Assembly (NCBI GenBank): GCA_947561395.2
Contig: OX387184.1
Location: 14,860,205-14,924,204, forward strand
Source of the DNA: Buxus sempervirens
Lineage: Eukaryota; Streptophyta; Magnoliopsida; Buxales; Buxaceae
DNA length: 64,000 nucleotides
Direction: 5' to 3'
Numbering within the stretch: position 1 is the stretch's first letter; the number at the start of each line of letters is the position of its first letter. Below the pieces are notes generated by a model, which was not told the DNA's origin, did not search any database, and saw nothing but the letters and a program-made list of their open reading frames with translations. A program made the translations under genes and the position numbers. Of this stretch, positions 7,617 to 64,000 are shown piece after piece.

Positions 7617-7621
7617 CCCCT

Positions 7622-33268: not shown

Positions 33269-33349
33269 TTCTTCGTTTTGTTTGTTATTAGGTTTTTGAC
33301 CTGTCGGTCCTAAAGAAGGGGTGATGAAGCAGGGTAAGTTGATCAGAAA

Positions 33350-37315: not shown

Positions 37316-37534
37316 ATCATTTCCCTGGAGATTTGTGATTCTTTTGTATATTGGTACGACAAGAAAGGGGGAGTGAATTGTGTGTATTGAATGTGTTGAC
37401 AGTGTTAGTCCTGTAATTATATTGTTCTTGTAGTGCAATGTAAGTGTTCATTTTTTCTAATTGTACAAGGATGTGTATGTACCAAATGTATACTTCCAGT
37501 GGAATGAGAATCGCAATTTTGAGTTAATTATTTA

Positions 37535-39238: not shown

Positions 39239-39241
39239 TTA

Positions 39242-39975
39242 GTTCCGTTAATTGGTTAATATTTTCAGAGCTTCTTGCTGTTTCTCTTGCAAGTACATCC
39301 CAAATCAAAATAAGGTTCCCCCATTAATAACACAGGTACATCCAAAATCAACCCTTAGGCGCCACCCATAATGGCTCCCAAAACCCCCCAATATATATAT
39401 TTTGTACACCCCAACTGAAGAGTTAAGGTATCCCCTCAAACAACAATAAGAACCCACCCATCTGGACCTTAGGTACCGTAGATTAAGCGTTAGGTACCCA
39501 CAATCATGCTTTAGGTACCCCACAAATAAGCGCAAGGTACCCTCTGCACAAATAGCATGACGCGCGTACCTGGGATATCAATGCCCGAATGTTGCAGTAC
39601 GAATTGGTGATTGAGATTTCAACGCGCGAACGTTGGTTCGTAACGTCCGCGCGTTATAAGGAAATTCTTCCTACTTCCTAACGTACCACTTTGTTCCCTG
39701 TAATTATGACCTTGTCCTCAAGGAATCCCCCCAATGATGCCTTAGGTAGCCCCCAAATGAGGCCTACGGTGCACCGCCAATCATCTTTTCAAAGAAGGAA
39801 CTGATTCGGAGTAGATTGATGGACAAAGTTATATCAAATGGAAACAACAGAGGATTATGATGCTGTAATTACGAATACTTTTACTATGGGAAATGAGTAC
39901 ATTCTACACATCTGAGTTGCGTTGAGATAAAGACATTTATATCCAAAACATAGAAGTACGTCTAAAATCAGCACA
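39242..39975. repeat. GGTACC-rich repeat region with a CGCG hairpin module
   Basis: Degenerate units such as TTAGGTACC and CAATGATGCCTTAGGTA, as at 33930-34100. AACGCGCGAACGTT (39621-39634) and AACGTCCGCGCGTT (39642-39655) form one short inverted module like those in the arrays beyond 42 kb. About 39800-39975 is the 3' flank of the PTP-domain gene. No other gene. Confidence 0.6.
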
Positions 39976-41271
39976 CTATGGTGCAATGTCATCGTCATCA
40001 GACCCGGGAAGTGGTGGGAGGGATGGAGTCTGCTGAGTGGAGCAAGTGAAGAGATGAGTCACTATCTTCACGGCTTTCTTGACCAGCTTCTTTAGTCCAC
40101 CAACTTCATGAGTGATAGATTCCTGAAACATTCCAAAATCACGTCGTAGACTGCCAAAATCCTCTCGAATCTCTCCAACGTCTTGGCTAAGCCTACGAAA
40201 GGCTTCTGACGACGGTCCACGTCGTGAATATGTCTTGAAAGAGCTGGGTTGAGAAGTGGGTGGACGAGGATGTGATGACGAAGGTTGTGCTGGCTCTGCT
40301 TCCTCTCTTTGTTGTGGCTGATGTTGGTGCGCCATTGATTCTTCGGATCTCTGAGCCGCGTGACAGTGGTGGTGCAAAGGTGCAAGTTGCATTTGATTTA
40401 GATTCATCTGTGAAAATTGCCTTGAAATAACCATGGAATCAGGAGGTCCACGTAAACCAAACCTCATCCCAATCCTGGTCATAAGATAGGCAAACGGAAG
40501 GGCTCTGGGACGAGATGAATGGACAACTTGACATATATGTCTGCAAATGAATGTGGGCAGACAAAGGCGCGTCCGAGTAATGAGACGGTAGAGAAGGAAG
40601 ACCATGGGCTTGGTCAGCTCGAACTTATTACCGCACCTAGGATAGACATTGAATGTGAAGATGAGATGGAGTATTCTATACGCAGGGAAGAGCTGACTAG
40701 CTTGAAGCACAGTCTTTTTCCATGGTGCATCAATCCCACACAGACATTGAGTGGCCTCAGTAAGTTCCTCTTGCGTTGGTGGGTTCAGGAAACGGATCTC
40801 TGATCTAGGTATACCCATTAGATCACTTATCAAGTCAGGTGTGACAGTATATGTAGAGTCTGCCACTTTGATCTCAAATGCAGGCTCACGAAAAGGAGGG
40901 GTGGACAAGTTACGGGATCCGGCATAAAGTTGAGCAACAGTCGAGGAGTTGGCAGCATCCCCCCAATCTAGAATGCCGGACCAACCAACAGCTTCCAGAA
41001 TCTGTACAATACCATATGGTTCTAAACATGATCTAAGAACCGGTTTCTCAACAATCAAGGGTCGCTGCCGAATCTGCTCGGCTTCAGAAGGTGCAGACGA
41101 TGAATTATCAGGAGAATAAGGCTCCCTGTGGATGGTAGACTGAGAGGGATTGGGTTCCTCTGTCTCAGAAGGGCTGTAATGAGAGCCGGAAGATAATGAG
41201 GGACTTGCAGGTGCAGGAGTCCTATCCCTTCTCCTCTTATGGCGCATGCTAGAATTCTTTGTTCGAGGCAT
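39976..41271 (-). CDS. Putative plant transposon protein (PTP) domain protein, 431 aa
   Basis: Single-exon reading from MPRTKNSSMRHKRRR. An in-frame ATG at 41418 would add 49 residues, but the inner start gives the same basic opening (M-x-x-K-T/K) as the second PTP gene at 63527 and is preferred. Residues 8-80 are a basic then Ser/Pro-rich tail. Residues 85-275 carry the PTP-type core: EAVGWSGIL, VAQLYAG, FEIKVADSTYTVTPDLISDLMGIPR, then AYRILHLIF and LPFAYLMTRIGM. Residues 355-405 look coiled-coil-forming, and the end is acidic (DDDD). This domain (Pfam-type putative plant transposon protein) is common in repeat-associated plant genes, and its molecular function is unknown. It faces the FAR1-type gene tail to tail. 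Confidence 0.65.
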   Translation of the reverse strand: MPRTKNSSMRHKRRRDRTPAPASPSLSSGSHYSPSETEEPNPSQSTIHREPYSPDNSSSAPSEAEQIRQRPLIVEKPVLRSCLEPYGIVQILEAVGWSGILDWGDAANSSTVAQLYAGSRNLSTPPFREPAFEIKVADSTYTVTPDLISDLMGIPRSEIRFLNPPTQEELTEATQCLCGIDAPWKKTVLQASQLFPAYRILHLIFTFNVYPRCGNKFELTKPMVFLLYRLITRTRLCLPTFICRHICQVVHSSRPRALPFAYLMTRIGMRFGLRGPPDSMVISRQFSQMNLNQMQLAPLHHHCHAAQRSEESMAHQHQPQQREEAEPAQPSSSHPRPPTSQPSSFKTYSRRGPSSEAFRRLSQDVGEIREDFGSLRRDFGMFQESITHEVGGLKKLVKKAVKIVTHLFTCSTQQTPSLPPLPGSDDDDIAP

Positions 41272-41535
41272 GATTTGAGAAAATGACAGAGAACAAAACA
41301 ATATTCGACACAACTCACAGTGGAAACTTGGTGGAGCCAAACCGTAAACCCCGTATATTTGGCCTTGAGTTGGAGAGTATACAGACTTGGAGAACCCTGG
41401 AAGAAACAGGAAGTGCATATACCGTAGATTAATCGTGATTTGGAGGCGAGAGGCAGCAGGAGAACAGTGGAATAAGGGGACCCATGCGTAGGAAACCCTA
41501 GATTACTCGTGAGTACGAAGTGGAGCGAAACCCTC

Positions 41536-41543
41536 TATTTATA
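41536..41543 (-). promoter_or_regulatory. TATA box of the PTP-domain gene
   Basis: TATAAATA on the minus strand, 265 bases upstream of the preferred ATG at 41271 and about 118 upstream of the alternative ATG at 41418. Good plant TATA consensus. Inferred only. Confidence 0.55.
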
Positions 41544-42839
41544 CACCCAAACATAAACCCTCGCTTGTGCGCATACAAATAATACATACGGCCGCACGAT
41601 TAGTCGTACAAATCAATAGATTAATCACATGCTTAATCGCCATGTTCCGATTACGCATGGGACCTAACCCTGATGAAACAGCGACTTGCTGTATGAAAAT
41701 ATTATATTTTTATGATATAATAATGTGTCTAGAAATCATGGGAAAGGTATTGAATGATGTGAGAGTTTATAACATTCATGTCACGTTATGAATGTGACTC
41801 ATGTAAGATATGTGCACGTATTTTTGAACCTTCAATACATACAAATCTGAGTACCCCCTAAAGAAGGCCATGCTACCCCAGACTTAAGCCCAAGGTACTG
41901 TGCAAAGTTTTCCAAAACGTGACCCCATGAAGAGAGCACCAATAGCACAGAGTTGTAGCGAGGTAACCCAAGAAATACGACCACGGCACCCCTCAAATAA
42001 TTCTAAGGTACATCAGGAAAAAAGCCAAAGGTGCCCCCCAATAATGCCTTACGGTTGCCACAATTAAGAAGCCAGGTACTGTATGGGTACCCCACATAAC
42101 ACGCAGGTACCCAAAAAAACATATGAAGGTACCCCATACAATAGCGCGCGAACGGTCCTTCAGAAAGCGCGCGCTTCAGTTGTCCTCTTAATCCGGAACG
42201 TGCGGGCGTTAAAGACAAACATCCACGCGTTGACGTCTGTGCCCCTTTCCTTCTACGGGGTACCTTACCTGTAACATAGGGGTACCTTCTTATTATATCA
42301 TTGGGTACCTTAGTTTTAACTGGGGTACCTGTGGCCTACCCTAATATGCGCGTCTGTGCTTGTACATACATGTGTACAAATACATACAAGCAGCCGATAC
42401 ACAACAAAAAATGTACTTACAAGTGTGCAAACAGGAACACACACACATATAAACGCAGGTATACATGTGTGTGCGTGGGTACACGTACAGACATGTGTAC
42501 ACATGCCAAGTACGTCATAGGTACCCCAACTAATACGTGTATACCCAAGCATAGGGAATGAAGGTACCCCATACGTAAGGCGAAGGTACCCAATATGAGG
42601 AATTACTAAGAAAAGTTAACGCGCGGACGTTAAAGTCAAACGCGCGAGCGTTAAAGCTAATAAAGCGGCAACGATCTTCTTCGGCCAGAACGTTCGCGCG
42701 TTAGAGACCAACGTCCGCGCGTTGACGTCTGTTCCCCTCTCCCTCTACCGGGTACCTTCGTTTTGAAACCGGGGTACCTTCGTATTATATAGTGCAGTAC
42801 CTTAGTTTTAATTGGGGTACCTGGGGCCAACCATAATAT

Positions 42840-43235
42840 ACGCGTCTATGCATGTACATACATGTGTACACATACATACAAGCAAGCCGGTACACACCAA
42901 ACAATGTACTTACATGTGTGCAAACAAGAACACACATGTACCTAGGTGTGTACATGTGTACACATGTACATGATATATGTGTACACAAGTACATGTTCTT
43001 TAACGTGTACATGTACGGACATGTGTGCACATGTACACACATGTCTACATCTGTTCAAATGCATGTAAATGTACATGTATGTGTACAAATGTACACACAT
43101 GTACATGTGTGCTCATATTGACATGTGTAAGCGTGTACACATGCACACACATGGGCACATGAGTGTACACACACGCACATGTGTACACATATACACATGT
43201 GTAAATGTGTACACAGATGACAATGTCCATGTGTA
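42840..43235. repeat. Alternating purine/pyrimidine ACATGTGTAC tract
   Basis: Nearly unbroken alternation of purine and pyrimidine built from ACATGT, GTACAC and GTGT. Such DNA is prone to the Z form. It cannot contain TAA, TAG or TGA where the alternation is strict, which explains long frames on all strands. Similar tracts lie at about 44895-45365 and 45720-46020, and in the right arm at 61040-61420 and 62250-62645. Confidence 0.8.
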
Positions 43236-44894
43236 CATTTGTAAGGTACATCAGCAAACAAGCCAGAGGTGCCCCCAAATGATAACTTACGGTAGGCACA
43301 ATTACGAAAACAAGTACGTCATAGGTACCCCACATGAAACGTGGGTACCCAAACAATAACATGACGGTACCCCATACTGATGGCGAAGGTACCCAATATA
43401 AGGAATTACTAGGAAACATTAACGCGCGGACGTTAAGGTCCAACACGCGAGCGTTAAAACTATTAATGCGCGTCCGATAGCTGTCTTCTTCGGCAGGAAC
43501 GTTCGCGCGTTCATGACCAACGTCTGCGCGTTGACGTCTCTTCCACTTTCCTTCTACAGGGTACCTTCGATTTTAAAACAGGGGTACCTTCGTATTATAT
43601 CCTTGGGTACCTTATTTTTATTTGGGGTACCTGTGTCCTACACTAATTTACGCACCTGTGCTTGTACATACATGTGTACAAATACATGAAAGAAGCCGAT
43701 ACACATCAAAAAATGTATTAACATGTGTGCACAGATGACAATGTCATAGGAACCCCAACAAATACGTGGGTACCCAAGGATAGGGAATGAAGCTACCCCA
43801 CACGTAAGGCGAAGGTACCCAATATGAGGAATTACTAGAAAACGTTAACGCGCGGACGTTAAAGTCGAAAGCGCGAGTGTGAAAGTTATTATTGCGCGTG
43901 CGACAGCTGTCTTCTTCGGCAGGAACGTTCGCGCGTTCATGACCAACGTCCGCGCGTTGACGTCTCTTCCACTTTCCTTCTAAAGGGTACCTTCGTATTA
44001 TATCCTTGGGTACCCCCCTTATATTTGGGGTACCTGTGTCCTATACTAATTTATGCACCTGTGCTTGTACATACATGTGTACAAATACATGAAAGAAGCC
44101 GATACACATCAAAAACTGTATTAACATGTGTGCACAGTTGACAATGTCATAGGAACCCCAACTAATACGTGGGTACCCAAGGATAGGGAATGAAGCTACC
44201 CCATACGTAAGGCGAAGGTACCCAATATGAGGAATTACTAGGAAACGTTAACGCGCGGACGTTAATGTCGAACGCGCGAGCGTGAAAGTTATTATTGCGC
44301 GTGCGACAGCTGTCTTCTTCGGCAGGAACGTTCGCACGTTCATGACCAACGTCCGCGCGTTGACGTCTCTTCCACTTTCCTTCTACATGGTACCTTCACT
44401 TTTAAAGCAGGGGTACCTTCGTATTATATCCTTGGGTACCCCCCTTATATTTGGGGTACCTGTGTCCTACACTAATTTACGCACCTGTGCTTGTACATAC
44501 ATGTGTACAAATACATGAAAGAAGCCGATACACATCAAAAACTGTATTAACATGTGTGCACAGTTGACAATGTCATAGGAACCCCAACTAATACGTGGGT
44601 ACCCAAGGATAGGGAATGAAGCTACCCCATACGTAAGGCGAAGGTACCCAATATGAGGAATTACTAGGAAATGTTAACGCGCGGACGTTAATGTCGAACG
44701 CGCGAGCGTGAAAGTTATTAATGCGCGTGCGACAGCTCTCTTCTTCGACCGGAACGTTCGCGCGTTAAAGACCAACATCCGCGGGTTAACGTTTGTTGCC
44801 CTTTCCGTCTACTGGGGTACCTTCGCCTTAACACCTGGGTACCTTCATATTATATTTTGTGGTACCTTAGGTTTAAGTGGGGTACCTGTGGCCT

Positions 44895-45365
44895 ACCCTA
44901 ATAATTGCTTCGGTACATGTGTCTACTTATGTACACATACATACAAGCAAGCCTATACACATCAAAGAATGTACTTACATGTGTGCACACAATTACACAC
45001 ATGTGTGTGCGTGGGTATACGTACATGTACACAAGTACATGTTCTTGTACGTGTTTACAGGTACAGAAATTTGTAGACATGTACAGACATGTGTGTACAT
45101 GTACACATGTGTACATGTGTAAACATGTATGTACATGTACATGTGTACACACATGTACCTGTACCTGTGTACACACATGTACATGTTTACAAATGTACAC
45201 ACATGGGCACATGTTTACACACATCTACATGTGTGCACATTGGTACATGTCTACTCATATATAAATGTACATGTTTACACATATACGAGTACACATGTAC
45301 ACATGTACACACATGTCTACATCTGTTCAAATGCATATAAATGTACATGTATGTGTACAAATGTA
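44895..45365. repeat. Alternating purine/pyrimidine ACATGTGTAC tract
   Basis: Second tract of the left arm, same composition as 42840-43235, lying between the hairpin modules at 44680 and 45495. Confidence 0.8.
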
Positions 45366-45719
45366 TGGTTAGGCACAATTACGAAGAAAAGTACATCATA
45401 GGAACCCCAACTACTACGTTGGTACCCAAACATAGGGAATGAAGGTACCCCATGCGTAAGGCGAAGGTACCCAATATGAGGAATTACTAAGAAAAGTTAA
45501 CGCGCGGACGTTAAAGTCAAACGCGCGAGCGTTAAAGCTAATAAAGCGACAACGGTCTTCTTCGGCCGGAACGTTCGCGCGTTAGAGACCAACGTCCGCG
45601 CCTTGATTTCGGTTCCCCTTTCCCTCTACTGGGTACCTTCGTTTTGAAGCCGGGATACCTTCGTATTATATTGTGAGGTACCTTTGTTTTAATTGGGGTA
45701 CCTGTGGCCAACCCTAATA

Positions 45720-46020
45720 TACACTTCTGTGCATGTCCATACATGTGTACATGTGTAAACATGTATGTACATGTACATGTGTACACACATGTACCTTTAC
45801 CTTTGTACATACATGTACATGTTTATACCTGTACACACATGGGAACATGTTTACACACATATACATGTGTGCACATATACACATGTGAACATGTCTACTC
45901 ATATATACATCTACATGTTTACACATATACACATGTGTACATGTTTGTGCACGCATATATACATGTACATGTGTACACATATACACTTTGTACATATGTA
46001 AACAAACGTAAATGAACACG
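45720..46020. repeat. Alternating purine/pyrimidine ACATGTGTAC tract
   Basis: Third tract of the left arm, nearest the centre of the palindrome. Its mirror partner is at 61040-61420. Confidence 0.8.
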
Positions 46021-46177
46021 TATACATGGCTCAGGGACCCAAGAATTACGACCAGGGCGCGCCGCCTTGAATAACTCTAAGGTACATCAGAGAATAAGCC
46101 AAAGGTGCGCCCCAATATTGCCTTACGGTGGCAACAATTAAGAAGCCAGGAATTGTATGGGTACCCCCCATACATGC

Positions 46178-48726
46178 TGTGCGCACCTAAATCTGACCTA
46201 TATCGCACACAAGGCGCACGTGGAAGTTCGTGCGTACCTCGGGACTTTCGGAGTCGCCACTGCCTGAGAGGTGCAGGCAGACACGGTGTTTGCCCTATCG
46301 GGTCTAAGTCTGGTCTGCGGCTTATTAGAGTTCTAGCTAAGTCCTCGGTTACAGTCCGGGGAAGTCCTAAAGACACCCCGGTCCCCCCCGCCGGTCTGAC
46401 GGGTCCCTCGGGTCTCCCTGGTTTTTGAGTCAATCTCACCCTTCCTAAACCAGCATGCTGCCTTGTTGGGTCTGGCGGGGCCCTCTATAGGTGTGGGTCC
46501 CTTTTATTTTGATTTTATCTTTTTTATTAATTTAAGTGAAGTGGGTCGGACCCGGGTCCCGTTGGAAGACCCGTGGGCTGCCATGGTTGGGCCTGGGGCC
46601 CAATTGGGTTATTGGGTAACCCATTTGGTTATTTTATTAAGTTTTATTTATTTACAATTTTAGTTTGGGCTTAGTGGGCTTGGAGTGGGCCCATTAGCCA
46701 GAGTCAAGTGGCCTTGGGCCTGTTTGTTGAAAACGGGCTTGGTTTAGGCTAGTCGGAATGTGGACCACACATGTGGGCCCGGGGTGTCTTGGTGGGCCCA
46801 TCTAGGCCCATGGTCTGCCCGTATTTACTCTACGGTTTGGTCTGAACCATAATTTTAACACGGTTCAGACCGGACCGTATATTGAATATGGGCACGCCTG
46901 GTCCGTACATAAAATACGGGCTTCGCCCGATTTTACAAGTTTGCAACATTTTTAGTGGTGATCGATTTGGATGTCTTCTATTGTCATTCGGCAACCTCTG
47001 CTGGTGATCCTAGCACAATCTTATTGTGCAAATATCTTCACTTGGCTGCCAATCTTCATCTTTCCTCTTTAACGCTCCATTGCTTGTAAACCCACATGCA
47101 TGAGGACTTTTAGAAGGGATAGAGGGAGGAAATCTTATGGGTTACAACAGATTCCCAAGGAGGACAACTCCCTCCGTAATGAATAGCCAAGATGTGAAAG
47201 TATCAATTTAACAAAAGAGAAATGGTGTTAGCTTGAGTCCTGTAACCAAAAGACATTTTCTTTTCACCTCTTAGTTGGGTACCTTCACCATGGGGAACTC
47301 AATGCCGCGTACAATAAGAGCAAGCCGGTGAGATAAACGTAATGAAACAAATAGTAGATAAAGAGGATTTAAAAACAAAGTCAAATTTAAGACATGTTGA
47401 ATATTACATTACCAGAAACATTCTTTTGCTATTACCTTCTTCTTGTTGATGTGTGACGGTTTTCCAAGAATTTTGGCAGCGCTTCCGCACCTCCGTTGGA
47501 TTTCACGAATTGATTTGAACAGGGCCTCTCTTGCTTTAGGTAAAAAGGGATTAGAGTTGAGGAGAAACTTGGACAGCGCTTCCGCGCTCCTTTAGATTTC
47601 CAAAAATGGGTTGAAAAGGGGGTTCTCCTACTTCCTAGATCGAAAGGGTAAAAGGGGAAGGGATTAGGTATGGTTGAGTGGTAAAATGGGAAGGAAAATT
47701 ATGTTTGAAAGTGAAGTGGGGATTTTGGCAGAGTATGGGATGAGCAAAAACACAAGAGAGGAGAGGGGGAGTGAAGTGGGAGAGAGCAAAAGGGGAAGAA
47801 GAGAGGGGTTTGGTGCTTGGAATGGAATGGGGGGTGGCCCCCCTTTTATAGTTGAAAAAATGACCTAAAAATGAATTTTAATCACCTTTTTTGACTGAAT
47901 TTTAATTTTATGTTTCATGTAACTAAAACTTAAATATTTTTTATTCTCATCGAATCCAACTCATTAAGCTTATCCATAGTGATGACATGTGGTTGATATT
48001 TTTTTGTTTATTTTTTATTTATCTTAATTTTTAGATTCTTTAAGATTTATTATTATTTTATTCTTAAGATTTTTTGGTTAGAAGACACATGTGTTTTCTA
48101 TTTTCTATTTTATTTTTGATTTAATTTAATTGTTAGATATTTACAAAATATTATTATTTTATTCTTAGATTTTTTTTTTGTCATTTCTTCAATCTTGCCA
48201 CATGTGCAGATTTTCCGAAATTTTTGACTGCTCATAACTTTCTCATTTGATATCCGATTTCAGCAAACTTAGTGGCGTTGGAATCAGGTTGAGATTCCCT
48301 ATCCACTAAGCTAAAGTTTGGCAGCAAATTTGGGCTTTTTAGCAGAAGTGCGAATTCGTGTCCCGGAGCCAGTTTTGCTCATATCTCCTTATCCGGGACT
48401 CCGATTCCAGCAAACTCAGTTGCGTTGGAGTCGTGTCGACGCGCTCTTTCTGCTGATGTCCAATTGAGCAGCTAATTTGGAGTTTTGCAGAAAGTCGATT
48501 TCTGCTATTTCCAGATTTGACCAACCCATAACTTCTTTATCCGGACTCCGATTTGAGCAAACTCAGTTGCGTTAGAATCGTATTGAAGTCCTCTTTCCAA
48601 TGGTATAAAGTTTGGTAGTCAATTTGCACCTGATCAAAAAGTCAAAATTTTGACCCGTTCAGGTTTGAATTTTAATTTGACTTTTAATTTTCTTCATTTC
48701 AGGGGTGCAAAAATCAGGTGTCTACA
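46178..48726 (-). mobile_element. 3' LTR of the Tat/Ogre-like element
   Basis: 2549 bp, near-identical to 58297-60843. It lies downstream in the element's own orientation. Small frames inside it (46105-46428 and 46463-46663 regions) also occur in the other LTR and are not genes. Confidence 0.9.
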
Positions 48727-48739
48727 GCTGCCCCTCTTT
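48727..48739 (-). promoter_or_regulatory. Polypurine tract of the Tat/Ogre-like element
   Basis: Minus strand AAAGAGGGGCAGC directly abutting the 3' LTR, where plus-strand priming is expected. It fixes the element's orientation. Confidence 0.75.
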
Positions 48740-49849
48740 GCCGGAGTCACCTTTGGGGATGAACGGCAAAGAAGAAAAAAGAACCTTATTTTTGCACCTT
48801 GCATTTCTGTCGACATGGTCGATGAGCTCATTTCTTGAATTGTTTTCAAGGAATGGGGAAGTGTCAGATGTCTGGTATCACTTCCTGATTTTGGAATCCC
48901 TATACCCTCTTTCGGGTTTGAATAGGGCTGTTCCTTAGTTCTTTGTTTTTTGAAAAGAAAAATAGGATTAAATCTGAGCTCATCAGCCTGTTTCGGCGTT
49001 GATGCAAGGCACTTAACAATGTTCTTTTCTTCTTCTTTGTTCCATTAAAGCTTTTAGTGACTTCAGTTTTGACTTTCTTGTTTTCTTTAAACTTGGTTTT
49101 TTTTTTTTTTTGTGACTGTTAGGTTAAGGTTGGGGACTGGGAGTGAAGGTGAGAGGAGGCTTCTGCGCTGCTGCCCATCATCTTGGATACCACACAAACC
49201 TATTCTAGCCTGGACTATTTACAAAAGTGGGAAATCAAAATTTACAAGAGGGGGCTAATTGGCCCGTTATCTTCTTTTCCTTGAAGAGTTTGTTGTTCCT
49301 TCTTGCCAGGCTTTCTTTGTCGAGGCAAAGAACTTTCTTGTGGGGACCTCCCAGTTTAACATACCTCCATTGGGGATTTGGTGGGAATGTGATCTATCTA
49401 GATGACTCTCTGGGGATTATTGTGATGTCTCTCTTTGCTCTTGAAGTTTTGTTGGAGGGTTTGAGGATCTTGACGATCTTCTTTCTTCTGAGCTCCGCTG
49501 GGGATGAAAGGGAAAAGACCTCTGATGGGGAAGAAAGTGTCCTTTCTCATGTTCATCTTATGTCTTATTTCTTCCCTGTTTGAACCTGTACAAGGAACAA
49601 AACATTAGTGCTTGATCTGTTGGGGATTGATATAATCTTCAATTAATCAAGCAACTTCGTGGGGTTTTTCTGAAGAGCTTGAGTAGTGGTACTCCCTTGG
49701 GGACTTGTGCCTTTTTAGGATTTTAACAGGTATGGACTTTGGAAAGCTATTTTGGTACTTGATTATAGATCTATTTTAACCGTCCTAAAACAGTTGGGGA
49801 AGAGAACCCAAAGACAATTTTATAAGGTCGATCTATTTTAATCATTTGG

Positions 49850-50165
49850 AATGATTAGGGGAGAGAACCCTGGACCTGATCTATTTTAGCTGAACGGCTG
49901 GGAAAGAGAACCTCGAGGTTAAACTGGTCTATTTTAGCCAAACGGCTGGGAAAGTGAACCCAAGGTTAAACTGGTCTATTTTAGCCAAACGGCTGGGAAA
50001 GGGAACCCAAAGTTAAATTAATCTATTTTAGCCAAACGGCTGGGAAAGGGAACCCGAGGTTAAACTGGTCTGTTTTAGCCAAACGGCTGGGAAAGGGAAC
50101 CCAAAGTTAAACTGGTCTATTTTAGCCAAACGGCTGGGAAAGGGAACCCAAGGTTAAACTGGTTG
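49850..50165 (-). repeat. Tandem repeat 1 in the element's 3' untranslated region (about 45-50 bp unit, 7 copies)
   Basis: Repeats of TATTTTAGCCAAACGGCTGG followed by GAAAGGGAACCCAAGGTTAAACTGG-type sequence. Short satellite-like arrays in the 3' untranslated region are a known habit of Tat/Ogre elements. Confidence 0.8.
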
Positions 50166-50279
50166 GTTTGAACTTAGTATCTCAGGGTTGGACCATGTAA
50201 AGTCTCCGCAGGGGGTGAGTTGAAAAACAACACCCAGGTGTGCCTCAGCTAACCTTCAGTTTAATCACTGACGGCGTTG

Positions 50280-53900: not shown

Positions 53901-54671
53901 TCAGGTGCTCTCCTCGTCCTTCTTTTTCACATCATCTTCTCTTTCCTGCGGGAAGATGGTTGATTCAGACATTCGGACCTGTGCCAACTTGTCAGAGATG
54001 TCTTGTCCTTTAACAGATTCCGGTTGCTCAAATAGTTCCTTCAAGAACCCTTGATCAATCAGATCTTGAATGTCATGCCTCAGATCCCAACACCGGTTTG
54101 TGTGGTGTCCTGGAGCACCAGAATGATACTCGCATCGTTCTGTAGCGTTGTAGTTTCTGGACCGAATCATTCGGGGGTTCGGGGGTTTGATCTGCACATA
54201 CCCCTCCTTCAATAGTGTTGGAAGCAATTCTGCCGGTGAATATGGTAAAAGGGTGAAAACCCTCCTCATTCTGGCCTCTGCTTCCTCTTTTGTTCTCCTT
54301 GGGGAATCACCTAAAGGATTCTGCTTTTTCATGACTTGAGGAACATCTGCTGCTACAGCTTTCCCTTTCTCTTTCCGTAATTGACTACCTACTGTGGTTG
54401 GTGGGCGGCTTACTTCCTGACTGTTCAGGGGCATGTTTTCTTTCATTCTCTTGATCTCTCCTTCAAGATCTCTTACTCGAGATCGCAATTCAAAATTTTC
54501 TTCTCCTAATGCTTCCCAGCATTTGTTCCATGTTTCTTCCCTGATCGTTATCATTTGTAGTAGGTTCCATAGAGAGGCCACTATGCTGGATATTTGTTGG
54601 GCCGCATCATGACTTGTTTCTGAGGTGTGGTCCATTCCGACTACCGAAGGAGTTCCTTCTAGAAGAAACAA
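53901..54671 (-). CDS. Second gag-region ORF of the Tat/Ogre-like element (256 aa)
   Basis: Lies downstream of the main gag ORF in the element's orientation. Residues about 30-95 look coiled-coil-forming (ENFELRSRVRDLEGEIKRMK). Residues about 135-225 carry RRVFTLLPYSPAELLPTLL and then a zinc-knuckle-like CEYHSGAPGHHTNRCWDL followed by DIQDLIDQG. This C-terminal block is typical of Tat-lineage Gag and is also present in the ORF at 54782-56131, so the element carries this block twice. Role beyond virion assembly/RNA binding is unknown. Confidence 0.65.
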   Translation of the reverse strand: MFLLEGTPSVVGMDHTSETSHDAAQQISSIVASLWNLLQMITIREETWNKCWEALGEENFELRSRVRDLEGEIKRMKENMPLNSQEVSRPPTTVGSQLRKEKGKAVAADVPQVMKKQNPLGDSPRRTKEEAEARMRRVFTLLPYSPAELLPTLLKEGYVQIKPPNPRMIRSRNYNATERCEYHSGAPGHHTNRCWDLRHDIQDLIDQGFLKELFEQPESVKGQDISDKLAQVRMSESTIFPQEREDDVKKKDEEST

Positions 54672-54781
54672 GCATCAGAAACCAGAATCCATGAAATGCT
54701 AGGCTGCATAGAGATGATCTTTTTTTCAATCTTTTCCCCTTTTTTCTTTTTCTTTTTTTTTCTTATTATTTATTTTCTTCT

Positions 54782-56131
54782 TCAATTTGGCGGAGGATCA
54801 ATTTTGAGTTCCCCAGCTTCAAGGAGATCTTGGACCGCATGACGGAGGCTCCAACATTCGTCAGTATCATGCCCTGGTGCTCCCTTATGGTAACCACATG
54901 TCTTGGATGGGTCATACCCTCTACTTGCTGGTGCCCTTGGATTTGGGGGAACCTGCTTCAGGTGTCCTTCTTGCAGCAAGGTAGGCAACAACTCAGCCAG
55001 GGAATATGGGAGCTGTGTGAACACACGGTTCTTTCTTTCTTCCTTAGTCAAAGGCTCCTTCAGTCGAGTCATGGTGACATTTGCACAGGGATGATCATTT
55101 CCTCTTTTGCGCTTAGCAGATCGGACATGGTTGATCATTCCCTCATATCTTATGTCTTCTTGGGAGGATTCTGTCATAGTAGCTCCTATTTTTCCAGCCT
55201 TAACTGCATCTTCGATCCTTTCAGCCGTCATCATCAGATCGGCGAAACTTGCAGCACATTGTCCCAATAGCATTGTAAAGTATGGCTGCCCTAATGATGA
55301 AATGAACAGAGAGGTTTGTTCTTGTTCAAGGAGAGGGGGTTGAACCATATTTGCTAGTTTCATCCATCTTTTAGCGTAGTCTCTTACAGACTCACTAGTT
55401 CCCTTTGACAATTTCTGTAATTTTGCCCGGGTTTGAACCATCAGACTGTTCAAATGGTACTGTTGGATGAATACAGTAGCAAGGTCGTTCCATGTCTTGA
55501 CCTTCTGCTTGTCCAGACTTAGGAACCAAGAATATGCTGCCCCAGCTAGCGATCTCTGGAAGAACTGAACCATAATCTTCTCATCCTTTGCATATTGGCA
55601 CATGTCGCCAACATAGGATCGCAGGTATATCAAAGGACAGCCAGTGCCGTCGAACTTATGCAAGTCAAGACATCGGAATTTTGCTGGCAGATGGATGTCT
55701 GGGAAAAGGCACAGGCTCTCCAGTGTGGTTTCCTCACGTACTGGGTTGGGCTGGAGTTGTTTCAAGAGCTCTTCTCTTATTGCGGCTATTTGGGCCTTAC
55801 TGTCTTCCTTTATTACAGTCAACATTTCCTCAAGTTGGGCCATCCATACCCTACTTCGGTCTTGCTTTTCCTGCCCCAGCTGAACAGGCGCACATGGTTC
55901 TTGTTGTGGAGGGTGGGTGGCTATTGCTGCCGGATGTGGGAATTGGGTGTCCCGTGGTGGTAGATCAATTGTCATGAGGTTCGGCTGGGGTGGTTGTCCC
56001 TGTTGGATTTCTGGTACTTGAACCCCCGTGGCATGTGTCATGGCTACTTGTTGACTTAGATCCATCATGACTTGCTGTTCTTCAGTTCTTGGTTGTGAGG
56101 ATGACGAAGTTGGAGCCTCAGAAGAATTCAT
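54782..56131 (-). CDS. Gag ORF of the Tat/Ogre-like element (449 aa)
   Basis: Starts MNSSEAPTSSSSQPRTEEQQ. After a Gln/Pro-rich N-terminus, residues about 160-300 are the Retrotrans_gag domain: KFDGTGCPLIYLRSYV, MVQFFQRSLAGAAYSWF, WNDLATVFIQQYHLN, LSKGTSESVRDYAKRWM. The C-terminal part has FTQLPYSLAELLPTLLQEG and the knuckle-like CGYHKGAPGHDTDECWSL with AVQDLLEAG. This layout is that of Tat-lineage Ty3/gypsy Gag. The product would package element RNA, and polymerase functions would have to come from an autonomous relative. Confidence 0.8.
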   Translation of the reverse strand: MNSSEAPTSSSSQPRTEEQQVMMDLSQQVAMTHATGVQVPEIQQGQPPQPNLMTIDLPPRDTQFPHPAAIATHPPQQEPCAPVQLGQEKQDRSRVWMAQLEEMLTVIKEDSKAQIAAIREELLKQLQPNPVREETTLESLCLFPDIHLPAKFRCLDLHKFDGTGCPLIYLRSYVGDMCQYAKDEKIMVQFFQRSLAGAAYSWFLSLDKQKVKTWNDLATVFIQQYHLNSLMVQTRAKLQKLSKGTSESVRDYAKRWMKLANMVQPPLLEQEQTSLFISSLGQPYFTMLLGQCAASFADLMMTAERIEDAVKAGKIGATMTESSQEDIRYEGMINHVRSAKRKRGNDHPCANVTMTRLKEPLTKEERKNRVFTQLPYSLAELLPTLLQEGHLKQVPPNPRAPASRGYDPSKTCGYHKGAPGHDTDECWSLRHAVQDLLEAGELKIDPPPN

Positions 56132-58275
56132 TGCAGTCCTTTTTCAATGCAAATGTAGTGTTCTGGGTAGTGCTTTTAATGTGAAGTACCTGAATCGTAC
56201 CTGTTCATTAAAGATCTCAATCAATTTCTTTTCAACTTATAAACAAGGTGTTGTGTGTGACGAGATCATTTACACCGTGAGTGGTGCTCTGGTGTCATGA
56301 TGTGCGAAAACAAATATGGGACGATTCATGCATGAAAATCACAACTTCGACAAAACATTACTGTGAACAGTGTGTGACAGTGCCATATCCACTCAAGAGT
56401 TTTTCCTGAAAATTGCGATGTTAAAAAAAACTTGCAGTTCGATCTTTCAGAGATTGAGACTCTGGAGATCATATCGTGTTTGATGGTTTTCAAAACCGTG
56501 CAACACATGCTTTATGAGTGCAAACCTCAGGAAATCATATCTGTGCCTTAATGGGCGGCGACTGAAAATTTCTTTGAAAACGTGTCCTGAACAATGGCAT
56601 GGAGAATTTACGCCGCAAGATGGGCGACTTGATTTATGTCTAAACAGCTAGCTCAATATAACCACAGATGACGGTTTTATTGTGCGTAGCACGAGACAAA
56701 GTTAATTTTGTCATGAAAGACGATTCAATGTAGGCCCGAAGGCCGCTTTGTTGTGTGCTTTGAAAAGCAATTTTGATGAGCACCTCAGAAGCTGGCTCAA
56801 TGCATGCCAGGAAAATATTTTGTGCATTTTTGAAAACAATTCGGCTAAACAGGTTCGTGTAAATGATCTCTAAGTGCACATGTTTAACGTAAGAACAAAT
56901 ATATACACAGGTAAAATGAAAGTTAAATGCTAAAAAAAACCCACAGGTGTGTGCATGGTCCTAAAAGGGTTGGTGCCTGTTAAGGCACGACTCCTAGACA
57001 TACTTGTGTAAGGAAGCACTCCTAAGTCCTGATCAGCCTTTTATCTTTCATCTGTTCTTTCATCTACTTTTGGGTGTCAGATCCCAACAAAAATGTTTAC
57101 AACTTGCCATCGAGGGCGAAATTTACAAAAATAATTCTGTAAAGAAAATCACCTTTAGGGCTGTTGGGAACCCAAAAGGAGGGTACAAGTTTGCTTCTTG
57201 GCAGGTGGGCTGAGGTCCTAAATCTAGGGTTTTTCTGCCCTTGTTCTGGCCTGTTTCTGTCTGATTGTCTGATCTGGCCGGCTCTCATCTGCTCAAAAGG
57301 CCGACTAAGACTTAAAGTGCTTCCAACGGACTCAATGGGTCGAGGCCCATGATTCACAGGACTCAAATGCATGGATCTGGGGTTAGACCCCTGATCAAAT
57401 TGGGTTGGTTTCCTAAATTAGAGCTAAGACAGCCCATGGTCTAGGTCTCACTCAGTCTGATGCAGAAGGACAGGGTTGTTGCCCCTGATGGACTCTTGGG
57501 TTTTAAATTGATTTTTCCCTTATTTTGTTTCAGCATTCGCATTCAGATTCAGATCCATTCACATTCAGAGTATCAAGGTTTTTCAGAATCAATAGGTGGG
57601 GAAGGATACCCAGCCCGAGGCATCTGCCTGCAAGGGTCTGAGCCTAGTACTAGACCCTTCGCGTACCATGGCAAGAAACCAATGGCGCTTGAAGAATCCA
57701 GAAACCTGGGGAGATGGGTTTACCCTGCTTTCCCCTGCAAGCCACGGGAGCGTAGGGCTAATACCATCCCAAAAGTAAGTTTCTTGATTGAAGAAGGGTG
57801 GCTGCTAGAGAGATCTAGGTTTTGGTTAAGAAGAACATTCACAGAGTGCAGACAGCATTCAGTTCGGATCATCCATGCAGACTCCCTCGTGCATTTCATC
57901 CTATGCAGTTAAAAAATTCATTCACGGTGTAGTGAGGTGCTTGTATGTGCAGTGGGGTCAAGTGCTGTGTCTATTCGAGTGATTCTTGGATAATGGGCTG
58001 ATTAAGGGTTCCTTAATGTCACTTTTATAGTGAGAATACAGAACAGTATGCAATACAATGTCTGGGTGGATCCCCAGGTAAGTGGAGGGTCACAGGGAAC
58101 CGCTTAAATTCCACTTTCCTTAGGCAATTATCTCGTCCTTATGACAGGATCCCCCAATACCATGTAATTGCATAAGTTCCATAAACCACTAAGGTTGGAC
58201 AAGAAGTACTTCCTAAATCTGCTTATATCCACCTAATTGACTCATTTGATAACCAGGGTCCAGCTGGGTTGAGGG
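56132..58275. other. 5' untranslated region of the Tat/Ogre-like element
   Basis: About 2.1 kb between the primer-binding site and the gag ORF in the element's direction. Frames at 57097-57372 and 57460-57912 show no family signal. Autonomous Ogre elements carry an extra ORF here, but none was recognised. Confidence 0.5.
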
Positions 58276-58293
58276 TCCCCAGCAGAGTCGCCA
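58276..58293 (-). promoter_or_regulatory. Primer-binding site of the Tat/Ogre-like element
   Basis: Minus strand TGGCGACTCTGCTGGGGA, three bases inside the 5' LTR. From memory this is the tRNA-Arg-type site reported for Ogre-related elements; the tRNA assignment is an inference. Confidence 0.7.
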
Positions 58294-58296
58294 AGC

Positions 58297-60843
58297 TGTG
58301 CGCACCTAAATCTGACCTAGATCGCACACGAGGCGCACGTGGAAGTTCGTGCGTACCTCGGGACTTTCGGAGTCGCCACTGCCTGAAAGGTGCAGGCAGA
58401 CACGGTGTTTGCCCTATCGGGTCTAAGTCTGGTCTGCGGCTTATTAGAGTTCTAGCTAAGTCCTCGGTTACGGTCCGGGGAAGTCCTAAAGACACCCCGG
58501 TCTGCCCCGCCGGTCTGACAGGTCCCTCGGGTCTCCCTGGTTTTTGAGTCAATCTCACCCTTCCTAAACCAGCATGCTGCCTTGTTGGGTCTGGCGGGGC
58601 CCTCTATAGGTGTGGGTCCCTTTTATTTTGATTTTATCTTTTTTATTAATTTAAGTGAAGTGGGTCGGACCCGGGTCCCGTTGGAAGACCCGTGGGCTGC
58701 CATGGTTGGGCCTGGGGCCCAATTGGGTTATTGGGTAACCCATTTGGTTATTTTCTTAAGTTTTATTTATTTACAATTTTAGTTTGGGCTTAGTGGGCTT
58801 GGAGTGGGCCCATTAGCCAGAGTCAAGTGGCCTTGGGCCTGTTTGTTGAAAACGGGCTTGGTTTAGGCTAGTCGGAATGTGGACCACACATGTGGGCCTG
58901 GGGTGTCTTGGTGGGCCCATCTAGGCCCATGGTCTGCCCGTATTTACTCTACGGTTTGGTCTGAACCATAATTTTAACACGGTTCAGACCGGACCGTATA
59001 TTGAATATGGGCACGCCTGGTCCGTACATAAAATACGGGCTTCGCCCGATTTTACAAGTTTGCAACATTTTCAGTGGTGATCGATTTGGATGTCTTCTAT
59101 TGTCATTTGGCAACCTCTGCTGGTGATCCTAGCACAATCTTATTGTGCAAATATCTTCACTTGGCTGCCAATCTTCATCTTTCCTCTTTAACGCTCCATT
59201 GCTTGTAAACCCACATGCATAAGGACTTTTAGAAGGGATAGAGGGAGGAAATCTTATGGGTTACAACAGATTCCCAAGGAGGACAACTCCCTCCGTAATG
59301 AATAGCCAAGATGTGAAAGTATCAATTTAACAAAAGAGAAATGGTGTTAGCTTGAGTCCTGTAACCAAAAGACATTTTCTTTTCACCTCTTAGTTGGGTA
59401 CCTTCACCATGGGGAACTCAATGCCGCGTACAATAAGAGCAAGCCGGTGAGATAAACGTAATGAAACAAATAGTAGATAAAGAGGATTTAAAAACAAAGT
59501 CAAATTTAAGACATGTTGAATATTACATTACCAGAAACATTCTTTTGCTATAGCCTTCTTCTTGTTGATGTGTGACGGTTTTCCAAGAATTTTGGCAGCG
59601 CTTCCGCACCTCCGTTGGATTTCACGAATTGATTTGAACAGGGCCTCTCTTGCTTTAGGTAAAAAGGGATTAGAGTTGAGGAGAAACTTGGACAGCGCTT
59701 CCGCGCTCCTTTAGATTTCCAAAAATGGGTTGAAAAGGGGGTTCTCCTACTTCCTAGATCGAAAGGGTAAAAGGGGAAGGGATTAGGTATGGTTGAGGGG
59801 TAAAATGGGAAGGAAAATTATGTTTGAAAGTGAAGTGGGGATTTTGGCAGAGTATGGGATGAGCAAAAACACAAGAGAGGAGAGGGGGAGTGAAGTGGGA
59901 GAGAGCAAAAGGGGAAGAAGAGAGGGGTTTGGTGCTTGGAATGGAATGGGGGTGGCCCCCCTTTTATAGTTGAAAAAATGACCTAAAAATGAATTTTAAT
60001 CACCTTTTTTGACTGAATTTTAATTTTATATTTCATGTAACTAAAACTTAAATATTTTTTATTCTCATCGAATCCAACTCATTAAGCTTATCCATAGTGA
60101 TGACATGTGGTTGATATTTTTTTGTTTATTTTTTATTTATCTTAATTTTTAGATTCTTTAAGATTTATTATTATTTTATTCTTAAGATTTTTTGGTTAGA
60201 AGACACATGTGTTTTCTATTTTCTATTTTATTTTTGATTTAATTTAATTGTTAGATATTTACAAAATATTATTATTTTATTCTTAGATTTTTTTTTGTCA
60301 TTTCTTCAATCTTGCCACATGTGCAGATTTTCCGAAATTTTTGACTGCTCATAACTTTCTCATTTGATATCCGATTTCAGCAAACTTAGTGGCGTTGGAA
60401 TCAGGTTGAGATTCCCTATCCACTAAGCTAAAGTTTGGCAGCAAATTCGGGCTTTTTAGCAGAAGTGCGAATTCGGGTCCCGGAGCCAGTTTTGCTCATA
60501 TCTCCTTATCCGGGACTCCGATTCCAGCAAACTCAGTTGCGTTGGAGTCGTGTCGACGCGCTCTTTCTGCTGATGTCCAATTGAGCAGCTAATTTGGAGT
60601 TTTGCAGAAAGTCGATTTCTGCTATTTCCATATTTGACCAACCCATAACTTCTTTATCCGGACTCCGATTTGAGCAAACTCAGTTGCGTTAGAATTGTAT
60701 TGAAGTCCTCTTTCCAATGGTATAAAGTTTGGTAGTCAATTTGCACCTGATCAAAAAGTCAAAATTTTGACCCGTTCAGGTTTGAATTTTAATTTGACTT
60801 TTAATTTTCTTCATTTCAGGGGTGCAAAAATCAGGTGTCTACA
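58297..60843 (-). mobile_element. 5' LTR of the Tat/Ogre-like element
   Basis: 2547 bp, near-identical to 46178-48726. It is followed on the plus strand by the CATGC target duplication. It should hold the element's promoter. The TATA position was not determined. Confidence 0.9.
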
Positions 60844-61039
60844 CATGCCTTTAGTTGTTCCAAAGGAAAAAAGTTAAAAAATCCGATATGGGTACCCCTG
60901 TAAAATTCAGGTACTCCCCAAGAAATATTGGTGTACACCGCATTACACCGAAGGTACCTCAGGATTCCTGGCTTCTTAATTGTGGCTACCGTAAGGCATC
61001 ATTGGGGGGGTGGTGGTGGTGGTGACCTTTGGCTTATTC

Positions 61040-61420
61040 TCTGTGTATACGTGTAAACATGTGCATTTATATATGAGTAGACATGTACCAATGTTTACAC
61101 ATGTATATGTGTGTAAACATGTGCCCATGTGTGTACATTTGTAAACATCTACATGTGTGTGCACAGGTACAGGTAAATGTGTGTACACATGTACATGTAC
61201 ATGTACATACATGTTTACACATGTACAGAAGTGTGTGTACATGTCTAACATTTCTGTACATGTAAACACGTACAAGAACATGTACTTGTGTACATGTACG
61301 TGTACCCACGCACACAGGAAAATGTGTACTTGTGTGCACAAATGTAAGAACATTCTTTGATGTGTATAGGCTTGCTTGTATGTATTTGTACACATGTAAA
61401 CACATGTATCGAAGCATATA
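61040..61420. repeat. Alternating purine/pyrimidine ACATGTGTAC tract
   Basis: First tract of the right arm, mirror of 45720-46020. Open frames through it are composition artefacts. Confidence 0.8.
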
Positions 61421-62249
61421 TTAGGGTAGCCCACTGGTACCCCACTTAAACCTAAGGTAGCACAAGATATAATACGAAGGTACCCCGGTGTTAAAACGAA
61501 GGTACCCAAGTAGAAGGAAAGGGCTACAGACGTTAACGCGTGGACGTTGTTCTCTAACGCGCGAACGTTCCGGCCGAAGAAGAGAGCTGTCGCACGCGCA
61601 ATAATAACTTTCACGCTCGCGCGTTCGACTTTAACGTCCGCGCGTTAACGTTTCCGAGTAATTCCTCATATTGGGTACCTTCGCCTTACGTGTGGGGTAG
61701 CTTCATTCCCTATCCTTGGGTACCCACGTATTAGTTGGGGTTCCTATGACATTGTCATCTGTGCACACATGTTAGTACATTTTTTGATGTGTATCGGCTG
61801 CTTTCATGTATTTGTACACATGTATGTACAAGCACAGGTGAGTAAATTAGTGTAGGACACAGGTACCCCAAATAATAATAAGGTACCCAAGGATATAATA
61901 CGAAGGTACCCCTTTTTTAAAAGCGAAGGTACCCTGTAGAAGGAAAGTGGAAGATACGTCAACGCGCGGACGTTGGTCATGAACGCACGAACGTTCCTGC
62001 CGAAGAAGACCGCTGTCGGACGCGCATTAATAGCTTTAACGCTCGCGCGTTGGACCTTAACGTCCGCGCGTTAATGTTTCCTAGTAATTTCTTATATTGG
62101 GTACCTTCGCCATCAGTATGGGGTACCGTCATGTTATTGTTTGGGTACCCACGTTTTATGTGGGGTACCTATGACGTACTTGTTTTCGTAATTGTGCCTA
62201 CCGTAAGTTATCATTTGGGGGCACCTCTGGCTTGTTTGCTGATGTACCT

Positions 62250-62645
62250 TACAAATGTACACATGGACATTGTCATCTGTGTACACATTTACACATGTGT
62301 ATATGTGTACACATGTGCGTGTGTGTACACTCATGTGCCCATGTGTGTGCATGTGTACACGCTTACACATGTCAATATAAGCACACATGTACATGTGTGT
62401 ACATTTGTACACATACATGTACATTTACATGCATTTGAACAGATGTAGACATGTGTGTACATGTGCACACATGTCCGTACATGTACACGTTAAAGAACAT
62501 GTACTTGTGTACACATATATCATGTACATGTGTACACATGTACAGACCTGGGTACATGTGTACACATATATACATGTACATGTGTACACATGTACACACA
62601 TGTGTACAATCATGTGTACACACATATACAAATGTACATACATGA
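62250..62645. repeat. Alternating purine/pyrimidine ACATGTGTAC tract
   Basis: Second tract of the right arm, mirror of 42840-43235, extended by extra ACATGTGTAC units at its outer end. Confidence 0.8.
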
Positions 62646-62950
62646 ACGCTCGGACGTTCTCGTGAACAAAACCCGTTGGGACACTTTAAAAAAGTTAAGA
62701 GGCTCTGTGGACGACACATATTTAATATCAACGCGCGCACGTTCTCGTGAACGCTCGGACGTTCGCTTTGGGTTTGGGTACCCCTGCGTTTTTGCATGAG
62801 GTATCCCCACATTTTGCCTGGGGTACCCCAATCATAAATCGAAGGTACCCTTTGAAGAATTCCTTATGTTTTGGCACATATTTAATATCAACGCGCACAC
62901 GTGCTGGGCGCGTGCGTTCGGGCGTTTGCCTATATTTACAAAGAAACAGG

Positions 62951-63363
62951 TCTGGCGCGTTATTTCGTCCATGCGAATCAAAGCCATCCGAAGCGCTTCA
63001 TCTTCATTGCGATAAAGTCTTCTCAGGGTGGGTACCACTTCTCTTCTGGAAGAGTTCCAAAGCCTATATTTTTGGTTCGTAGGACTTACGAGATGCTTTA
63101 CGAACTTTACTGCTTTGATTTTATATGTTACGATTAGGGTATTAATTTGTTCATTTAGGGTTTCCGATCTATGTGTTTATTCTAATGTCTTGAAGAGGTA
63201 CATTTTGGTTTATCTTTGTCGGAATGGTTTATATTATCGGTTGCAATCAAGTTACTATTCACTTTTCCTATAAGCCTTTGACAAGTACACATCCCTATTG
63301 TTATCTCCCTGACGCGTGAATAACGCCTGCACTTTTTCCTCAAGTGTTGGGGTTTTTTTTTTA
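62951..63363. other. Upstream region of the second PTP-domain gene
   Basis: Unique-looking AT-rich DNA between the right arm and the TATA-like box. No other gene seen. Confidence 0.5.
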
Positions 63364-63370
63364 TGTATAT
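63364..63370 (+). promoter_or_regulatory. TATA-like box of the second PTP-domain gene
   Basis: GTATATAG about 160 bases upstream of the ATG at 63527. It would place the start of transcription near 63395-63400. Inferred from sequence and spacing. Confidence 0.45.
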
Positions 63371-63526
63371 AGGGAGTGGATTTTTTCCACACAATTATTC
63401 ATATTATTCACATTCTATATTATTTGCATTCGGTAGCACTCATCTTTTCTGTGTCTAACATTATCGTTTGCTATGTGTTGTTTTGTGCATATTTATTTTT
63501 CTTCCTCTCTTCTTCTGAAATCTTAG

Positions 63527-64000
63527 ATGGCCCCTAAGACCAGAGCCTCATCTTCTAAACCTAAGAAATCCTCCAGGACAGCCAATAAGAAACGCAGGAC
63601 TGATTCATTTGATAATTCAATCTTCATCGATCGGCAGGCCAAGAAGCTGTACGAGAATGATGTCAGCCATAGACAAATCTTGCTTGAAAAAGGGGTTATT
63701 CTAGAAGACGTCCCCGAGTCTATTAGTGCAGCATTTACCGGGAGAGGATGGGATAACCTCTTCACCAACTTCCTGCTCCCATCCCAACACCTAGTATATG
63801 AATTCTATTCAAACATCCACAACATCGCAGACGGTCCATCCTTCGATACCTCTCTCAGAAGGCAGCCCATCCATGTAGATTCTGATACCATCGCTGGGGC
63901 CCTAGGTATTCCGAGAGTTGAGAATCCTGAATTCCCGTATGTTGATGCTCCCTTACCACAATTGCTCAATGAAGTGGCTGCTTGTTTACTGACCACTGAG
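63527..64000 (+). CDS. Putative plant transposon protein (PTP) domain protein, partial (first 158 aa)
   Basis: Open from ATG 63527 to the window end, so it is incomplete. It begins MAPKTRASSSKPKKSS with a basic stretch to residue 24 that could be a nuclear signal. From residue 35 it reads FIDRQAKKLYE, then RGWDNLFTNF, LVYEFYSNIHN, PIHVDSDTIAGALGIPR. The RGW, EFYSN and LGIP positions are the core of the putative plant transposon protein domain, as in the 39976-41271 gene. The two proteins are only distantly alike in sequence. The codons before the ATG read as a plausible 5' untranslated leader (or splice acceptor, TCTTAG). Function unknown. Confidence 0.7.
   Translation, partial: MAPKTRASSSKPKKSSRTANKKRRTDSFDNSIFIDRQAKKLYENDVSHRQILLEKGVILEDVPESISAAFTGRGWDNLFTNFLLPSQHLVYEFYSNIHNIADGPSFDTSLRRQPIHVDSDTIAGALGIPRVENPEFPYVDAPLPQLLNEVAACLLTTE

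Follow-up and report, generated by a model that had tools for sequence, protein, structure and literature searches.

What kind of locus sets two plant transposon genes back to back around an inverted repeat array? The question is raised by a 64,000-nt stretch of the Buxus sempervirens genome (C4:14860205–14924204; hereafter the window), in which a first-pass annotation had noted two genes for putative plant transposon proteins (PTPs), one on the minus strand (ATG 41271) and one on the plus strand (ATG 63527), and had suggested that the region between them is either a shared bidirectional control region or the termini of two elements joined head to head. Both genes are present, and they and the inverted array are the interior of a single DNA transposon, one copy of a giant FAR1-type Mutator-like element (MULE), which begins at 33353 and, once the sequence is extended past 64000, is seen to end at window-equivalent 73795, so that its right end lies 9.8 kb beyond the window end. 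Coordinates are those of the window unless a copy is named, and “window-equivalent” denotes positions beyond 64000. The element is recognised by its termini, target-site duplications (TSDs), gene content and multiple copies, and its interior by a palindrome and an enrichment of motifs in noncoding DNA, all of which are observed directly. Its features in the window are as follows.

33344–33352, no strand: left 9-bp TSD, CAGAAACTT (right copy at window-equivalent 73796–73804, outside the window)
33353–64000, continuing to window-equivalent 73795, no strand: giant FAR1-type MULE, delimited by homology among copies, termini and TSD
33353–33563, plus strand: left terminal inverted repeat (TIR) with the end GCGCGCGGATCCTCTGTGAAG, its length of about 211 bp taken by comparison with copy E9
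34604–36868, plus strand: transposase with FAR1 DNA-binding domain, MULE transposase domain and SWIM zinc finger
39976–41271, minus strand: PTP1 (PF20167), the open reading frame (ORF) continuing upstream to an ATG at 41418
41966–46172, no strand: left part of the palindromic array, with tandem units of 403–426 bp and GGTACC, AACGCGCGGACGTT and ACATGT/TGTACA modules
60850–62644, no strand: right part of this array, running in the opposite orientation to the left part
63527–64000, plus strand: 5' part of PTP2 (PF20167), running on past the window end

Termini, class and copies of the element

The window element is bordered on both sides by the identical 9-bp sequence CAGAAACTT. Nine elements, the window's included, could be read at both ends, and a perfect 9-bp duplication is present in eight of them, the ninth (E5) having no TSD; one outermost terminus is changed by a few bases in E2 and in E7. 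Homology stops at the equivalent of window position 33353 in all eight copies whose left end was covered. The element measures about 20.8 kb without nested insertions, the reference copy E9 (C9:5342448–5363207) being 20,760 bp long, with TIRs at 1–211 and 20542–20760 that are 88.8% identical (about 211–219 bp). Across the 676 Mb of genome searched, a 21-base pattern of the left end was matched 219 times in forward and 228 times in reverse orientation (two mismatches at most), and the reversed control not at all. Wherever two neighbouring matches of the 100 listed (47 plus, 53 minus; 447 in all) stand within 60 kb of each other they converge, which gives 35 pairs; the median span of the pairs among these matches is 20,760 bp, and 24 of the 35 fall between 20.2 and 21.6 kb.

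The traits of the MULE superfamily, a MULE-type transposase, a TSD of about 9 bp and TIRs, are all present. Because the transposase is of FAR1/MULE type, with a FAR1 DNA-binding domain at the N-terminus and a SWIM zinc finger, we assign the element to the FAR1/Jittery-type MULEs: it is a known kind in an unusual, very large form.

Ten further copies were compared over 20 kb each. In all ten, homology runs from the FAR1 gene through the array into PTP2 and past the window end, and the overall layout is the same; two are damaged, copy C5 having lost most of PTP1, and copy C10 lacking the equivalent of 36544–39874, including the 3' end of the transposase. Copies C8 and C10, whose right ends lie outside the compared stretches, are not counted among the complete elements. 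Nor does the array occur by itself where it was scored. A search with 1.2 kb of it brought up 183 first-look candidates; at each of the 28 that were scored, at least one other part of the element lies nearby, and all four tested parts were found at no fewer than 18. With 40 scored loci for each part, PTP1 is linked within 9 kb to at least 25 array loci, PTP2 within 22 kb to at least 24, the transposase within 12 kb to at least 24 and the left TIR within 14 kb to at least 25. The genome-wide module search that the first-pass annotation proposed has thus found PTP1, PTP2, transposase or left TIR at every scored locus, and modules living mostly as free satellite blocks, which it had named as the outcome that would overturn its reading, are ruled out by the same linkage.

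Where they align, the seven other complete copies match E9 at 98.1–99.3% identity, and copy C8 matches it at 99.8% over 19.4 kb; as judged by this identity of 98–99.8%, the family has multiplied recently. An internally deleted derivative of 5,965 bp, with both ends, the transposase and its own 9-bp TSD CACTCAACC, lies at C4:9141780–9147800. A spread of this compact form without PTPs and array was considered and set aside: its junction was matched in full at one only of the 40 places scored (226 candidates), giving no sign of it.

Genes of the element

The order along the element is TIR, transposase (+), PTP1 (−), palindromic array, PTP2 (+), PMD/DUF1985-ULP1 gene (−), TIR. These four genes are laid out in E9 as the transposase at 1245–3512 (+), PTP1 within the frame 4920–6443 (−), the array at about 6950–12400, PTP2 at 12915–14756 (+) and an antisense gene of 13 exons at 19279–16051 (−), and all four reading frames are open in at least this one copy. 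The transposase matches PF10551 at 91.9 bits (cutoff 27.6), PF00872 at 26.5 bits (cutoff 21), the FAR1 domain PF03101 at 91.5 bits and SWIM PF04434 at 30.8 bits. It is free of premature stops and frameshifts in seven of the eight other copies checked, the window included, and E5 has an in-frame loss of 3 bases.

PTP1 matches the Pfam family PF20167 (Transposase_32, “Putative plant transposon protein”) at 52.5 bits (cutoff 45). The window's PTP2, cut by the window end, reaches 23 bits, below the cutoff, and its full-length counterpart in E9 reaches 74.7, the E9 PTP1 scoring 51.7. The two E9 proteins share 20% of their residues across 209 aligned positions (BLASTP E 3e-6), so the earlier description of them as alike in domain and not in close sequence is right. 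The PTP domain is not specific to this element: genome-wide, PF20167 gave 2050 first-look candidates, of which 150 were scored, and the members listed score at least 101.6 bits, against 51.7 and 74.7 here, so that they belong to something else. A sequence search of PTP1 against solved structures gave a single insignificant match (E 0.53), and its AlphaFold model, from the single window sequence, has a mean pLDDT (predicted local distance difference test) of 44.3 and a pTM (predicted template-modelling score) of 0.22. The TATA-like boxes reported beside the arms are there, TATAAATA at 273 bp upstream of the PTP1 ATG and a weaker TATATA at 161 bp upstream of the PTP2 ATG.

The 13-exon model of E9, its GT-AG junctions placed by eye, encodes 721 amino acids, among them a C48 protease domain of Ulp1 type (E 1e-14); in this model the residue at what we take to be the position of the usual catalytic Asp appears to be Asn. 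DUF1985, the domain type proposed for another part of this protein, is linked to the VANC proteins of VANDAL MULEs. The ratio of nonsynonymous to synonymous change, over distinct differences from E9, is 0.39 for the transposase, 0.49 for the ULP gene and 0.63 for PTP2, these being pooled polymorphisms that ignore CpG decay and thus weak evidence of constraint; several PTP2 copies carry stops or indels.

The palindromic array and its possible role

The window copy is longer than the reference because it carries two nested insertions, neither of them part of the element.

46178–60843, minus strand: nested long terminal repeat (LTR) retrotransposon, LTRs at about 46178–48726 and 58297–60843
37535–39238, no strand: nested insertion of 1.7 kb with TIR GGCTCCGTTTG and TSD TTA, seen in none of the other copies compared

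The LTR retrotransposon has LTRs of about 2.55 kb that are 99.0% identical, a 5-bp TSD (CATGC) and gag on the minus strand; minisatellites lie inside it at 49876–51985. The shorter insertion is, from its TIR and TSD, presumably PIF/Harbinger-like.

Of the giant inverted array first described, the inverted arms are real and the extent is not. An uninterrupted palindrome of 20 kb is ruled out, 14.7 kb of that stretch being the nested LTR element, which splits a true array of about 6 kb into 41966–46172 and 60850–62644. Its tandem units stand in opposite orientation on the two sides, and the arms pair at 92.3% identity (42932–44136 with 61333–62561) and 90.1% (44146–45286 with 61045–62175). Arm pairs occur in all seven other copies in which the array was delimited, the best of them 0.8–1.7 kb long and 89–94% identical, and the array with its flanks ranges from 5.5 to 7.2 kb; an eighth copy, E5, was left out because the anchor step failed.

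Three motif classes dominate the array: GGTACC, AACG-N6-CGTT with a CGCGCG core, and ACATGT/TGTACA. Compared with 300 dinucleotide-preserving shuffles of the E9 array, GGTACC occurs 55 times (shuffle mean 3.0, maximum 11) and the exact 14-mer AACGCGCGGACGTT 12 times (none in shuffles), and no shuffle matched the observed value for any motif counted. Per kb, the E9 gene bodies (ULP-gene introns included), the array, the other noncoding DNA of the element and window positions 1–33352 hold, in that order, 0.11, 10.1, 4.0 and 0.12 GGTACC; 0.23, 7.2, 1.4 and 0.03 ACGCGC; and 0, 4.2, 0.6 and 0 of the 14-mer type. In absolute terms, the gene bodies contain one GGTACC and no 14-mer type and the 33 kb of neighbouring window DNA four and none, and in E9 outside the array GGTACC is found 5 and 10 times in the two subterminal regions, 4 times after the transposase and 6 times after PTP2, the last two stretches also holding three 14-mer-type sites each. 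Genome-wide, the exact 14-mer has 942 matches, against one for the reversed-pattern control; the 100 places listed are all on C1, six recognised copies accounting for 81 of them and the other 19 lying elsewhere. From this distribution we infer that the array is an element-specific signal. Seven exact 14-mer matches cluster at C1:14644370–14688699, which was not recognised as a full copy and is possibly a rearranged or related element.

What might such a signal do? The anti-silencing VANC proteins of Arabidopsis VANDALs bind short motifs in the noncoding tandem repeats of these elements and lift silencing (PMC5735166, PMC10398659). By analogy, the array is probably a docking platform for the element's own regulatory proteins. 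One or more DNA-binding proteins that the element itself encodes would recognise its motifs; the FAR1-type transposase, the DUF1985-ULP1 protein and the PTPs are the candidates. Such binding, in a mode like that of VANC on its motif repeats, would keep the chromatin of the central region open and drive PTP1 and PTP2 outward from both edges of the array. Because both genes point outward, their transcripts would avoid the palindrome and yield no hairpin RNA to feed silencing. This reading as a whole, one copy of a giant FAR1/Jittery-type MULE with a putative binding-site platform that drives PTP1 and PTP2, we hold at about even confidence. The shared bidirectional control region proposed at the outset is plausible in that it is compatible with the anatomy, with divergent genes, an array between them and TATA-like boxes.

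In a narrower version, which we consider unlikely, the FAR1-type transposase of the element would itself bind the array, which would act as a cis-regulatory platform inside the element. The host transcription factors FHY3/FAR1 recognise CACGCGC (PMC6000157), the 14-mer AACGCGCGGACGTT of the array holds ACGCGC in its core, and it has the 8-mer CGCGCGGA in common with the extreme terminus of the element; the transposase is an alternative binder for these reasons. The element's first 40 bp yield 33 overlapping 8-mers, of which the array holds only CGCGCGGA (12 times) and TGAAGCGC (twice), and the link between TIR and array through CGCGCGGA is suggestive only, its core being a GC-rich palindromic run. 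The array motif reads AACGCGC, and the exact CACGCGC is present only 3 times in the E9 array, which speaks against a simple identity of array and FHY3/FAR1 sites. Were the transposase the binder, sequence-specific transcriptional activation through ACGCGC-type sites would predate domestication and have been inherited by FHY3/FAR1, and the palindrome would be a switch acting in both directions, by which the element activates two accessory genes of its own and counters silencing.

Several observations weigh against the platform reading. PTP1 appears without constraint in the pooled count (16 nonsynonymous to 3 synonymous, ratio 1.66, from 19 changes only) and is free of stops, frameshifts and large losses in only four of the eight copies set against E9, the window included; two of the seven ULP genes compared have a one-base deletion. 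In the ULP product, the PMD (25.8 bits, E 7e-6) and DUF1985 (21.7 bits, E 2e-4) matches fused to the C48 domain both fall below the Pfam cutoffs. The 14-mer occurs outside the array in just two noncoding stretches and in neither terminal region, and the 5.97-kb derivative lacks PTPs, array and ULP gene, parts that may thus be dispensable.

The array may, moreover, be a by-product of slippage and inverted duplication. On this account, which we regard as possible though doubtful, satellite-like tandem units grew by slippage, were inverted once in an ancestor and were then copied by transposition, with no regulatory role. The tandem units of 403–426 bp, the variable length of the array with its flanks across the seven delimited copies, the similar and imperfect arms and the ACATGT/TGTACA 6-mers, which are largely confined to the array, all agree with it. 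The enrichment of GGTACC in the subterminal regions and after the transposase and PTP2, with the 14-mer type in two of these, speaks against it, as does the near absence of both motifs from the gene bodies; slippage confined to the array does not by itself account for motifs that are enriched elsewhere in the element's noncoding DNA.

Inverted repeats can also act as silencers of transposons, and arms of 0.8–1.7 kb at 89–94% identity could form double-stranded RNA if transcribed through, so that the array might be the source of a hairpin or of bidirectional small RNAs that silence or limit the family, as self-regulation or host defence. We think this quite improbable, because the flanking genes face away and their transcripts would not cross the array, and because the family is still recent and near-identical. 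Two separate elements joined head to head at abutted termini would fit the common domain and outward orientation of PTP1 and PTP2, but the true termini, at 33353 and 73795, are convergent TIRs that enclose everything within a single matching 9-bp TSD, and the same overall order recurs at further independent sites, which refutes that junction for the present element. An ancient origin of the element's interior by inverted duplication is possible.

Beside the element, four minus-strand ORFs of very similar sequence (3798–4280, 14524–15006, 22019–22504 and 32759–33268) resemble what we take to be a dihydrodiol-dehydrogenase-type oxidoreductase, and their similarity suggests a tandem gene duplication. 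The element end (33353) and the start codon of the last ORF (33268) are 85 bp apart, and the insertion is therefore in the immediate upstream region of that ORF.

Comparison with known systems

With many near-identical copies and all four frames open in E9, activity and the roles of the accessory genes are directly testable, as is now the plausible reading of bidirectional control. The element offers a TIR-bearing MULE lineage in which to ask whether motif-array anti-silencing arose more than once; as a living relative of the transcription factors FHY3/FAR1, it also lets one ask which DNA the ancestral transposase recognised. Searches of an open-access library turned up neither a giant FAR1-type MULE of four genes with a palindromic motif array inside it nor one with a PTP gene pair and a central palindrome; the comparisons that follow are with each system as far as the cited passages describe it.

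The combination of FAR1 domain, MULE domain and SWIM finger in the transposase is shared with maize Jittery and citrus CitMule. CitMule, a FAR1-type MULE of 6.8–6.9 kb, has one predicted transcript and, in three of four copies, perfect 9-bp TSDs (PMC4334395), and a survey table gives the plant Jittery sub-group TIRs of 39–292 bp, one ORF and, where a TSD is stated, 8 bp (PMC6446971). In contrast to these, the present element carries four genes and a palindromic array on about 20.8 kb and has 9-bp TSDs. MULEs that contain a gene for a ULP1 protease are likewise known: the gene stands in reverse orientation in the KI-MULEs (Kaonashi) of Arabidopsis and in either orientation elsewhere, and some Jittery-like families of melon and grapevine carry a ULP gene (PMC2528002). 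The present element resembles all of these in its ULP1 protease gene, and differs from the ULP-carrying MULEs as described there in its pair of PTP genes and its central palindromic array. PF20167/Transposase_32 is related to Athila ORF1, and partial similarity to it is reported for an additional ORF of a sunflower Athila LTR retrotransposon (PMC11728184), whereas here the domain occurs in two genes of a DNA transposon.

With the VANDALs and VANC the element has in common a short motif repeated in its noncoding DNA, and the candidate DUF1985-type domain of its accessory gene, here a sub-threshold match, may be a second point of likeness; a ULP1-bearing form of VANC, KIU, has been described (PMC13317346). 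VANDALs have degenerate TIRs (PMC10398659) or are counted as non-TIR MULEs (PMC13317346), and their target repeats are tandem, whereas here the putative binding motifs form a palindrome between divergent genes. Because its TIRs are intact and its transposase is FAR1-type, unlike those of VANDALs, we do not class the element as one. Finally, the element shares with FHY3/FAR1 a FAR1-type DNA-binding domain and, in its array, a motif containing ACGCGC, although this motif reads AACGCGC and the host factors, unlike the element, are not mobile.

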